A stretch of 64,000 nt of DNA from Blakeslea trispora (lineage: Eukaryota > Mucoromycota > Mucoromycetes > Mucorales > Choanephoraceae), in the NCBI GenBank assembly GCA_025331445.1, contig JAIWNE010000001.1:124001-188000 (forward strand). The letters run 5' to 3'. The position numbers were made by a program, and so were the translations under genes. The notes under the pieces are model-generated. The model was not told where the DNA came from. It saw only the letters and a list, made by a program, of their open reading frames with translations, and searched no databases. How positions within the stretch are numbered: the stretch's first letter is position 1; each line of letters begins with the position of its first letter. This document shows positions 30,472-35,310 of this stretch, piece by piece.

Positions 30472-33400
30472 ATGGTCTCTGGTCAATTATCTGCTCTTTT
30501 AGTTGACTGGACCACAGCAGTGACAGAACTCGATCTCGATCAGACAAAGTCGCTTTTGGAAAAAGAACCCGAGTTACTATGGACACCGATCCCACACATC
30601 ATTGACGATCATCTTCAACGCCATCTACTCGAACTCAATAAACTCGGCACTACTTTTCAACCTGTCAATGCTATCCAATTTACCTGTCTATTCAATCAAG
30701 ATGCCAATGAAGCACAACAACGGTTTGATTTCCTTTGTTTTTTAATTGAGGTAAGACAAAAAGAAATAATAAGAATAATAATAACTGATCATAATACTAC
30801 AAAAAACCAGCAATCTTCACTTCATGATTTAGATACTCGTTTTTGGGGTGAATTTAACAATACTACAATGCATCTTGTCTGTTTTTTGGATTATGAGCCT
30901 ATTGTTCAACTGTTGATTGAAAAGGGAGTGTCAGTGACCCCTCGAAATGATCTGGGGTACTTGCCTCGAGATACCACCACGCATGAGTCCATCCTGGATC
31001 GCTTGACACAAGCTCAACAGAAACAAAAGCAGAAAAGGGACATGACTCGAGCCAAGTCAGTTCGACCAAACTATAGTACACCCGATCGTTTCAAGTTATT
31101 AAGAGAATTGGCAGAGGAAACCAGTGGGGCTGCTGAGGAACCCAAGATGTTGAATATCACCATTGATCGTAAGAAATCCGAAGGTCATTATTTCAAAAAA
31201 GGAAAAGTGAAGGAGACGCAACAAAAGGTATTGACTGAAGAAGAAGTGGTCGAACTGGAGAAACAGCGTCAGAGACGACAGTTGGAAGTAGCTCAGTTGG
31301 TCAAGAAATCTGCAGTTAAAAATAACCCTCTCTTCAAAAAATTGGAAAAACGTGCTTATCCATCCCTTTCTCGAGCCAGCACTAAATCACAGACAACACT
31401 CGTTGTAGAGGAATCAGAGGAAGCAACAGAACAACAAGAGGCCCTGGATTCAGATGCTCTAGAGAGTGAGAGTGAGGAAGAGTCTGATCATGAAGAGAAG
31501 CCTTCGAAACGTAACTCAAAGGTTATTTCTTCTCTCTTGACTCGATCTTGTGTCTCTTCAAGCATCTTTGTTCAAGCAGATGAAGATGCGCCTACCACAC
31601 CCACCAGGCGATTCTCTAAAGCACCTATTGATACAAGCCATACCCATTTACCCATGAGTCCAACTAAAGTCATCAGTCCGACTGCTACCATGACCATTAA
31701 TGAATTAGAAGGCACCATCACATTCACTGATGAAGAAGAGGAAGAAGAGTTTTATGATGGTCAATTAAGTCAAACAGATCATTCAATTGAAGATGAAGTG
31801 AAGAGTTATTATACACTTGCATTAGAGAATGACAAGTACTATGCAGTAGACAAACAAGATCAGGTATCTTTGTTTGATTCACGCGATAGTACAGAAGAAG
31901 ATGAAAAGGAAGTGTATCCAGATATCGAAGAAGAAGAAGAGGAGGAGGAGGAGGAGGAGGAGGAAGAGGAAGAATTAACGCCAGTTCAAGTAGCCAAGCG
32001 TCTAGTGCCAACGACTTATCAACCAGTCACTATCTACCACAACACAACACCATTGGACAAACTCTCAAGAGACTCTGGTGTTGAAATTGAGGAAGAAGCT
32101 TTACCTAAAGAGCAGCAGGATATAAAAGAAGAAGCCTCATCAGAATTGACATTAACAATTCCGAATGCCGCAAATTATGTACAACCACCTGTGCGACCTC
32201 AACGTTCTGAACTCCGAAAGAGTACTTTTGCTATTGTCAAACCAGAACAAGATGAACAGGATGATATCAAAAGTAAGCGTATGAGTGGTAGCCAAAAGGC
32301 CGCTTGGACCATGAGTATGAGTTCTTGGGCTGCCATTCTAGACAGAGAATTCAATCTAGACGAATTGGATCCTACTAAAAAATACAAGGAACAACAACGA
32401 TTGGCACAAGAAGAACAACAAAAACAAAAAGAACTTGCCATAGTAACAAAAGCAACAGCAGAACAAGAAGAAGAAGAACAGGAGACGGGCTTGGCCATCC
32501 CTTCTTTTAGTAAGGCCAGAGCAAGAACCTCAAGTCTGATTGGTCTGGTCAGTAGTGCAAGTAGCACATTCTCCAGGTCGTCTACATTGCATTCCAGCAG
32601 TCTATTGTCTATTGAACAATCCACAGCTACCTTAGTACCACCTCATGCATTACCCAAACTTTCAAATAAGTCGATCCGTCGTAAGCCAATCAGCACTCTG
32701 ATACCAACAGAATCCATGGCTTCCCGTCGATCCTCCTCCCTCATCAACTTGACAGATGCCAAATCCATTCATGATATACCTTCTTCTCCACCCACTTCCC
32801 CTACCTCCCCTACTTCACCCATGTCTGTTGCATCCAAACCTATACCAAGACCATTGATCTCAAGAAACAACAGTACAAGTCATGGCAAACTCTATCTTCA
32901 TGTCAATGGTATCCAAGATATCCTGTTACCCTTACCAAAGGATCGCGCCTATGTCCGTTGTGTCGTAAGCGATGGACGGTTTGAATACATGTCGCGGTAT
33001 GAGATCTTGTCTCAGAGTATTGTGTTTGATTATGAATGTGTGATTGATACACAGCCCGATATGATCATCACCATCTCGCTACATGTTCGACCGGACTATG
33101 TCATGAAATCCCGTTTACCGTTCTCTCGACTGTTCTCATCCAAAAAGAAAAAGAAGGAGTGTCTATCAGGCTATGTCAATAAAGAAGATGGTGCTATTGG
33201 ACAAGCACGGTTTGCATTAGCGCATATGTTGCCTGTCTGTTCAGAGACATCGTATATGGCTGGTTTCCATTGCTTCAATGCGTGGTATTCAAGATCCTTT
33301 AGAGAGCGTCATCGACAAAAGAAGCGAAGTCAAGTTGATCCAGATCAAGATGTACTTAAAGTAGTTGGTAATTTTGATGTTGAAATGTTTTATTTACCTA

Positions 33401-33542
33401 CTTTTGATACAACTCAGGTAAAGTTTCTCTCTTTGTTTACTCAACATAAGCTCATATTTCTCATTTATAGCCTGTGCCTCGTAATTTACGTGAATGCCAT
33501 CAAATCATGAAACAATCGAAAACCATGATAGCTTCATCTTAA
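30472..33542 (+). CDS. Ankyrin + Bud4/anillin-like protein
   Basis: About 985 residues after removing two introns (30751-30810 and 33418-33470). Exons: 30472-30750, 30811-33417, 33471-33542. The N-terminus holds an ankyrin-like unit (NNTTMHLVCFLDYEPIVQLL, then IEKGVSVTPRNDLGYLP). A disordered middle has acidic repeats, including a run of 17 Glu near 31925-31975. The C-terminal 200 residues begin GKLYLHVNGIQDILLPLPKD and continue with FRCTL-like RCVVSDGRFEY, resembling the anillin-like/C2-like domain of fungal Bud4 and Mid2, which act in septum and bud-site organisation. The PH domain that normally follows in those proteins is not present. The 60-nt first intron has no stop and is a multiple of three. 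Confidence 0.65.
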
Positions 33543-33626: not shown

Positions 33627-34431
33627 TTAGAAATCATCTCCTTGATGAGCAAAGAAATGAGTATAAGCAATGATGGTACCATAGACCAAAATGCCACCAG
33701 AGATACTCATGATCATAGCAGCTACTGTGATCTAAATGGAAATTATTAGACGAAACGTGTATATTCATGCAATGGACTTACCACTTCAGCATGAGCCAAA
33801 ACAAAAGGTAAACCTATGGTTTTATATAAGTAATTGCGAAAGGAGAGACATCTGCTTAAACTTACAGAATCCAGTCACCATCAACATGCCAGTCATAAAA
33901 TGTCCTGCATCAATGATTCCACTACAGTAGACATTAGTCTATCTTTCCTAGCAGAGTATGAAAAAGAAAAGTTTACCTGTTGTAATCTGACATGATATCA
34001 TCATCGCCTGCACATCGACTGCATAGGGCATTGGGTAAAGGTGCAAGTATAAACACGCCCACTTTGAAGAGAGAAATGAACTTGGATTATGTCATCTACT
34101 TATTGATCTTTTTCTTACCAACTGCTAAGGGTGTCCAATTACTAAATCGAAAACAGTCATAAATACAACTTGGAACTAGTCTCCTTATAAACACTTACTA
34201 AAAGAGTGCACAAGAAAGAATGACAAGTAAAAATCCAATAGCTAAAACGAAAGCAAGTGCAATAATGCTAATATCGGATGAGTTTAGCTTCCCTTTTTTT
34301 TTTTCTTTATTCACAATCTAACTTACGCTATTAAAAGTCGAGTCAAGTGTTACAGCAAATAGAAAGAAAAGGGGAGAATAAGTCAAGACGTATACATTGC
34401 TTCAATAGAGATTACTTCTTAAGCCTGCCAT
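33627..34431 (-). CDS. VPS55: Vps55/LEPROT endosomal protein
   Basis: Late-endosome/Golgi to vacuole sorting protein of the Vps55/OB-RGRP family, 128 residues with four membrane helices. Exons are 34416-34431, 34327 (one base), 34199-34267, 34119-34141, 33977-34061, 33866-33921, 33782-33813 and 33627-33731. The protein starts MAGLRTIIALAF, followed by the family signature VLAIGFLLVILSCALFYNW. It then has FILAPLPNALC, MSDYNSGIIDAGHFMTGML and LAHAEVITVAAMIM. The length matches yeast Vps55 (140). The one-base exon is required to keep the frame between exon 1 and exon 3; see findings. Confidence 0.93.
34327..34327 (-). other. Predicted one-nucleotide exon of VPS55
   Basis: On the minus strand the sequence reads TTTTAATAG, C, GTAAGTTAG. 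The C is flanked directly by a consensus acceptor and a consensus donor. Including this base joins A (last base of exon 1), C, and C (first base of exon 3) into ACC, Thr6 of MAGLRTII. Omitting it frameshifts the conserved protein. The flanking introns are 88 nt (34328-34415) and 59 nt (34268-34326). Confidence 0.7.
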
Positions 34432-34632: not shown

Positions 34633-35310
34633 TTAGAATTTTCCTTGAAGGAGCTCCTTAACAACAGCCTTGCCATAAAGACGGAAAGTGTTAAAGAGGG
34701 TCACAAAGTCAACGGTGGAGAAAAAGGTATCAAACAAACCAAAAGGCAACATGGCAGGAACCCAACCACGAGCATATTCAAGAGCCCAAGCATGTTCATG
34801 GATCTTGTATTGTTGAGACATACCACGAGGCAAATGGTGCATCTCTCCAGGCTTGAAAACAGTACGTTGAAGATCACCAGGATAAGCAGCCCATTGTTCA
34901 CCTTCCAAGATAATAAAGTAATCATCAGCCAAGAAGCGACCGGTATGGCCCTCAGTACCGACAGGTGTACCAAAGATAATAACATATTCAGTAATAGAAG
35001 CATGCAAGATCCACATAGAACCCATAGCACCACCAGCATTGTTAAAGACCCATTCTTCCTTGATGGAGACATGGCCTGGGTATTCCTTTTCCAGATCCAA
35101 GGCAATGTTTTGGATCATGGCACGAGTGTCATTTTGGCCATACTTTTCAATGTTACGTTGAGCTACCTCTTGAAGCTTGTGTTGATCAAAGACATAACAA
35201 TGATGTTTCACTTGATCCAATCCAATGAAAATAGCAATGAATAAAGTCAATAAGAACAAGCATTTAGACCAGCAGCTTGTCTTTTTTTGTTCTTGTACTT
35301 TGACAGACAT
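34633..35310 (-). CDS. ERG2: C-8 sterol isomerase
   Basis: Ergosterol-pathway enzyme converting fecosterol to episterol in the ER; homologous to the sigma-1 receptor. Single exon, 225 residues (yeast Erg2 is 222). An N-terminal membrane helix spans residues 17-31 (CLFLLTLFIAIFIGL). The conserved cupin-like core includes NNAGGAMGSMWILHASITEY, FGTPVGTEGHTGRF, DDYFIILEGEQWAAYPGD and HLPRGMSQQYKI. The C-terminal hydrophobic region WVPAMLPFGLFDTFF is typical. It lies 200 bp upstream of VPS55 on the same strand. Confidence 0.97.
   Translation of the reverse strand: MSVKVQEQKKTSCWSKCLFLLTLFIAIFIGLDQVKHHCYVFDQHKLQEVAQRNIEKYGQNDTRAMIQNIALDLEKEYPGHVSIKEEWVFNNAGGAMGSMWILHASITEYVIIFGTPVGTEGHTGRFLADDYFIILEGEQWAAYPGDLQRTVFKPGEMHHLPRGMSQQYKIHEHAWALEYARGWVPAMLPFGLFDTFFSTVDFVTLFNTFRLYGKAVVKELLQGKF

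Follow-up and report, generated by a model that had tools for sequence, protein, structure and literature searches.

VPS55 of Blakeslea trispora is very probably assembled with a one-letter exon

Can the reading frame of a conserved sorting gene depend on an exon of a single nucleotide? The question is raised by the 5' end of VPS55 of Blakeslea trispora, within a 64,000-nucleotide stretch of contig JAIWNE010000001.1 (hereafter the window; positions are those of the window unless another accession is named), where the original prediction had read an isolated C at 34327 as an exon. VPS55 is encoded by the minus strand (34327 is a G on the plus strand), and joining its eight coding exons gave a protein of 128 residues that was identified as Vps55 by its match to PF04133 (residues 7-124; E 5.6e-43; 146 bits against a curated cut-off of 24.6). 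All seven introns have GT-AG ends and measure 50-88 nt. Coding exon 1 (34416..34431), ATGGCAGGCTTAAGAA, encodes MAGLR and the first base of codon 6, and rests on the identical deposited protein P0001. Intron 1 (34328..34415; 88 nt) runs from GTAATC to AATAG, with the acceptor TTTTAATAG and a branch-like TTGAC (YTNAY motif) 15 nt from its end. The predicted exon 2 is the single C at 34327, the second base of codon 6 (ACC), which is needed for the threonine at residue 6 (T6) of P0001. Intron 2 (34268..34326; 59 nt) runs from GTAAGT to TATTAG and carries a branch-like CTCAT, of the same YTNAY type, 11 nt from its end. Exon 3 (34199..34267), read from the sequence and from a match at 92% identity, supplies the third base of codon 6 and then IIALAFVLAIGFLLVILSCALF. 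The remainder of the gene, all on the minus strand, consists of intron 3 (34142..34198; 57 nt), exon 4 (34119..34141), intron 4 (34062..34118; 57 nt), exon 5 (33977..34061), intron 5 (33922..33976; 55 nt), exon 6 (33866..33921), intron 6 (33814..33865; 52 nt), exon 7 (33782..33813), intron 7 (33732..33781; 50 nt) and exon 8 (33627..33731), which includes the stop codon; these were placed from the sequence, with a genome match in addition for exons 5, 6 and 8. The genome search revealed no second VPS55 copy, the sole match elsewhere having an E value of 0.6, and a PDB search returned 0 matches at E 0.1.

The predicted position of the C, exactly between the acceptor AATAG and the donor GTAAGT, was borne out on the minus strand, and the introns that flank it, of 88 and 59 nt, are of usable size on both sides. 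Codon 6 draws on three exons: exon 1 gives the A, 34327 the first C and exon 3 the second. It had also been claimed that the conserved N-terminus of Vps55 can be read only with this C; cutting out a single continuous segment anywhere from the start codon to the end of exon 3 never yields MAGLRTIIALAF. As had been stated, joining exon 1 directly to exon 3 loses the frame: skipping the C gives MAGLRTLLHLLSF followed by a stop, a product of 13 residues, and the plain join was rejected on this ground. A 4-nt exon, CAAT, was likewise rejected, as it would need an intron of 16 nt. Retention of intron 1 leads to a stop after 9 residues, and the other splice forms tried (skipping and retention) end after 6, 9 or 13 residues. 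Counted against the one-base exon is the weak donor of intron 1, GTAATC. The predicted mRNA would consist, in this region, of the 16 bases of exon 1, then CC, then ATTATTGCACTTGC; a transcript that includes the exon would read AGAACCATT at the junction, while AGAACATT would be the junction contrary to it.

The protein databases provided a further line of evidence. An NCBI entry named 'vacuolar protein sorting 55 [Blakeslea trispora]' (P0001) is identical, letter for letter, to our joined protein of 128 residues, and this identity spans codon 6, which requires the single C. P0001 appears to have been annotated on the same assembly. As its N-terminus cannot be obtained by one cut, the model behind it must have used either two introns at this place or a transcript. 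A paralogue as the source of the deposited protein was ruled out, none having been found in the genome. A second protein, P0011, which is 77% identical and lies on a contig of 2,574 bases, likewise reads MAGLRTIIALAF. Taken together, these comparisons support the interpretation of the original prediction, and we consider it very likely, judging from sequence, that the C at 34327 is a real exon of VPS55 in Blakeslea trispora, one nucleotide long and constitutive.

In order to estimate how often such an arrangement arises by chance, the 148-nt stretch between exons 1 and 3 was subjected to 20,000 dinucleotide shuffles in which its first 6 and last 3 bases were kept, and a motif was counted when it was placed so that both resulting introns were at least 45 nt long. 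The bare motif AGNGT was present in 11.6% of shuffles and YAGNGT in 4.2%, YAGNGTRAG in 0.12% and WWAGNGTAAGT in 0.01%; an in-frame microexon of any kind, of 1-31 nt, with YAG...GTRAG was present in 1.0%. Counted in the genome itself, YAGNGTRAG occurred 10 times in 317,508 strand-bases, the VPS55 site included, which corresponds to 0.0047 per 148 nt. Genome-wide, WWAGNGTAAGT was found 549 times, compared with 759 times in a reversed control, so that the motif by itself does not point to a large number of one-base exons. Intron length was a further argument of the original prediction, in which a single fused intron of 148 nt was held to be unusually long. Lengths were estimated for 71 introns from the gaps between neighbouring profile hits (three families, 166 rows), and these estimates are rough because profile hits run into introns or stop short; the median was 61 nt, and of the 71 estimates 12 reached at least 88 nt and 4 at least 140 nt. 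Choanephora is a mould related to Blakeslea. The mean intron reported for it is 71.39 nt (PMC5238444). A fused intron would thus be long for this genome without being unheard of, and the argument holds only to that extent; the length is the weak argument and the match to the splice sites the strong one.

One alternative is an error of the assembly: exon 1 or exon 3 would lack a base, the two exons would be joined plainly, and AG-C-GTAAGT would be a coincidence. A single 148-nt intron would be possible given the four introns of at least 140 nt, and the Vps55 proteins of Lichtheimia (P0032) and Rhizophagus (P0124) fit AC/GT, a plain phase-2 intron at this place. Against this, the chance of the coincidence is about 0.1-0.5%, P0001 has a T6 that one cut of the assembly cannot give, and intron 1 has a normal acceptor, the branch-like TTGAC and a usable size, which together make an assembly error very unlikely. 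A different start or acceptor is more improbable still. Two statements of the original prediction, that no alternative AG works and that no in-frame ATG lies upstream of exon 3, were overstated: from the donor GTAATC, a join to either ATAAAG or AAAAAG leaves the frame open, at the cost of long inserts (KKKKGKLNSSDIS or RKLNSSDIS), and the ATG at 34397, if followed by a splice at GTCTTG, would lead to MYT-IIALAF. All of these joins are in frame and open, but each of them either loses the conserved MAGLR or inserts at least 9 residues before the core; both acceptors come after runs of A that lack pyrimidines, GTCTTG makes a poor donor, and the products disagree with P0001.

There is very little to be said for a non-canonical single intron of 147 nt, with GT-TA, TA-AG or similar ends, which would give MAGLRSIIALAF with a serine at codon 6. 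Five equivalent placements of it exist because of a short repeat, and serine does occupy this place in 8 of the 133 well-formed models among the fungal proteins listed; yet none of the five placements has GT-AG ends, and P0001 has threonine, and we regard this intron as scarcely credible. Of a different kind is the proposal that the one-base exon is real but regulated, with a short-lived skipping or retention transcript that tunes the level of VPS55. This would be compatible with the reading of the C as an exon. The early ends of all other splice forms tried are in its favor, as is the report that VPS55 of a spikemoss, a hornwort and a liverwort forms two transcripts, with and without a 1-nt exon (PMC8831610). 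On the other side, no second full protein is made in Blakeslea, because retention of intron 1 stops after 9 residues, and we give regulation a low probability.

If the C is a constitutive exon, codon 6 would be split after its first and after its second base by introns of the ordinary GT-AG type, 88 and 59 nt long, both presumably recognized by intron definition. The AG of intron 1 and the 5' splice site region of intron 2 overlap, which would keep the two introns from being spliced at once. Their removal would be sequential, as at a recursive splice site, except that a single base remains. Intron 2 would be the likelier to be removed first, since its donor is a perfect GTAAGT and that of intron 1 is the weaker GTAATC. 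Inclusion of the C would have to be efficient, because without this base, or with one of the two introns retained, the frame comes to a stop within 14 codons. A classic recursive splice site leaves no base in the mRNA, whereas in the Blakeslea model one base stays. What the two have in common is a donor that is regenerated at the junction after removal of the upstream intron (PMC4674806, PMC6224609). Stepwise removal under intron definition was argued for the one-base exon of APC11 by Guo and Liu (PMC4674806).

To explore the same junction in relatives, the best 120 of 495 hits and the best 120 of 408 hits were combined into a fungal set of 168 distinct Vps55 proteins. In 133 of these listed proteins a single residue separates G[LIV][KR] from the core, namely T in 123, S in 8, R in 2 and A in 0, the prevailing T agreeing with T6 of the joined protein; the N-terminus is odd in 25, where the residue is S in 12, A in 5 and spread over seven other residues in the remaining eight; and the core is absent in 10. 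Serine is the residue expected from read-through of the last acceptor (AG plus one base), and alanine is the one expected when the G at the end of an intron is followed by a one-base exon C and one more base. A scan of 288 proteins gave seven rows with an insert between the family start and the core; one of them, P0066, was dropped as a false pattern match. Three of the six left fit the footprint of family start, insert and alanine: those of Mucor plumbeus (P0004), Calcarisporiella (P0121) and Ganoderma (P0149). Their inserts can be written as A/GT...YAG/C/N, with retained introns of 57, 60 and 57 nt, respectively, and the donors inferred back from them are GTAAR in P0004, GTGAR in P0121 and, less tellingly, GTTCN or GTAGY in P0149. 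The annotated proteins of Mucor and Calcarisporiella, and perhaps that of Ganoderma, thus seem to carry footprints of the one-base-exon arrangement, as read back from protein to DNA, although gene finders can also go astray on a very short first exon alone. The inserts of Lichtheimia P0032 and Rhizophagus P0124 fit a plain phase-2 intron, AC/GTAY (2 of 6), and that of Geosiphon P0041 fits neither arrangement (1 of 6), so the one-base-exon arrangement would not be universal in fungi.

Many of the deposited models are faulty at this very junction. Ten from Mucoromycota and allies (P0004, P0014, P0015, P0016, P0018, P0019, P0022, P0026, P0037 and P0121) are wrong between MAGLR and IIALAF, with a retained intron, another start or skipped exons. 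A hidden one-base exon offers a reason for such faults in many Mucoromycota, and a very short first exon offers another. Two Vps55 models of Phycomyces blakesleeanus differ at residue 6, which is serine in P0027 and threonine in P0131, and a one-base exon would decide this residue. Under the name Rhizopus arrhizus, P0026 shares 96% identity with the Mucor plumbeus protein over 64% of its length, and P0015 is a Vps55 that bears the name of a histone methyltransferase.

DNA of relatives was sought in two collections. Scans of the viral contig collection with five alignments found no Vps55 DNA, and in the genome contig collection a first scan found none and a second scan found one locus. This locus (NYXK01000211.1, 2832-3559) is an ascomycete-like VPS55 with introns in which AAA ACC ATC stands uninterrupted, and it can serve as a yardstick, suggesting that exactly one codon, of the same three letters, belongs between K/R and I. 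It is filed under a Deltaproteobacteria MAG and represents eukaryotic contamination. There is a fair chance that the one-base exon of VPS55 is old and widespread in fungi. A more far-reaching scenario is offered tentatively and is itself rather doubtful: both introns would already have existed in the ancestor shared by Mucoromycota, Calcarisporiella and Basidiomycota; Lichtheimia, Rhizophagus and other such lineages would have lost the upstream one, at least one ascomycete lineage would have lost both, and the exon may even descend from the pair of introns behind the one-base exon of plant VPS55.

In land plants, the cluster 2 microexon of VPS55-1, 1 nt long and with support from RT-PCR and RNA-seq, was reported by Yu et al. 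2022 (PMC8831610), and a one-base exon is also reported in Vps55 of Zygnema (PMC11096116). The plant exon resembles ours in the gene, the N-terminal end, the single base, a GTRAGT donor and its absence from annotations (PMC8831610). The Arabidopsis product described there as misannotated is without 13 residues; if it starts at a methionine at residue 14, such as Brassica P0169 has, the plant exon probably lies before codon 14. The fungal codon 6 corresponds to plant codon 16 in ungapped register, and MAFFT places gaps in the same stretch, and the two exon positions seem to differ. Among the 120 plant proteins listed, codon 14 encodes T in 78, S in 29, M in 11, I in 1 and A in 1; apart from A, this spread would be allowed if the second base of an A-N-N codon changed, which is only a hint in the other direction. 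With one-base exons of the same gene in land plants and, as predicted, in a fungus, it becomes testable whether these are accidents or a case of very long persistence.

One-base exons had been called almost unknown. They are indeed rare, but they have already been published for plant APC11, plant VPS55 and CYP621A of Fusarium, and a placozoan mitochondrial case is also in print. Nelson and Syed 2026 (PMC12940212) call the one-nucleotide exon of Fusarium CYP621A the first in any fungal gene. This exon shares with ours the fungal host, the single base in mid-codon, exon phases that cannot be joined directly, a fused intron (139 nt) of more than twice the median length and an intronless relative as yardstick; it differs in belonging to an ascomycete P450 of unknown function, in its base, G, and in its confirmation by SRA reads, whereas the Blakeslea exon, a C predicted from sequence, lies in a conserved sorting gene of the Mucorales. 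Arabidopsis APC11 (Guo and Liu 2015, PMC4674806) likewise has a constitutive one-base exon that restores the frame, in another gene, in a plant, with the base A, and tested by mutation. The APC11 domain of the Blakeslea genome is found with 64 of 65 positions in one frame. Among the papers listed from the open-licence PMC literature we found no report of a one-base exon in fungal VPS55 or in Mucoromycota; what is new, as far as these searches show, is the phylum, a second gene in fungi and the renewed occurrence in VPS55. Judged by what we found in print, VPS55 of Blakeslea would join CYP621A as the second such gene in fungi and would be the first in an early-diverging fungal phylum. The protein-level footprint, alanine in place of threonine after a residue whose codon ends in CA or TA, can be used to seek hidden one-base exons in existing annotations.

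Two neighbors of VPS55 were also recorded. On the plus strand, an open frame of 1012 residues with runs of Glu (30472-33510) is convergent with VPS55, leaving about 116 nt between its end and the VPS55 stop codon; at E 0.001 it matched nothing in Pfam. The other neighbor, an intact gene of the ERG2/Sigma1-receptor-like type (PF04622, E 8e-91; 34633-35310, minus strand), has the direction of VPS55 and lies upstream of it at a distance of about 200 nt.
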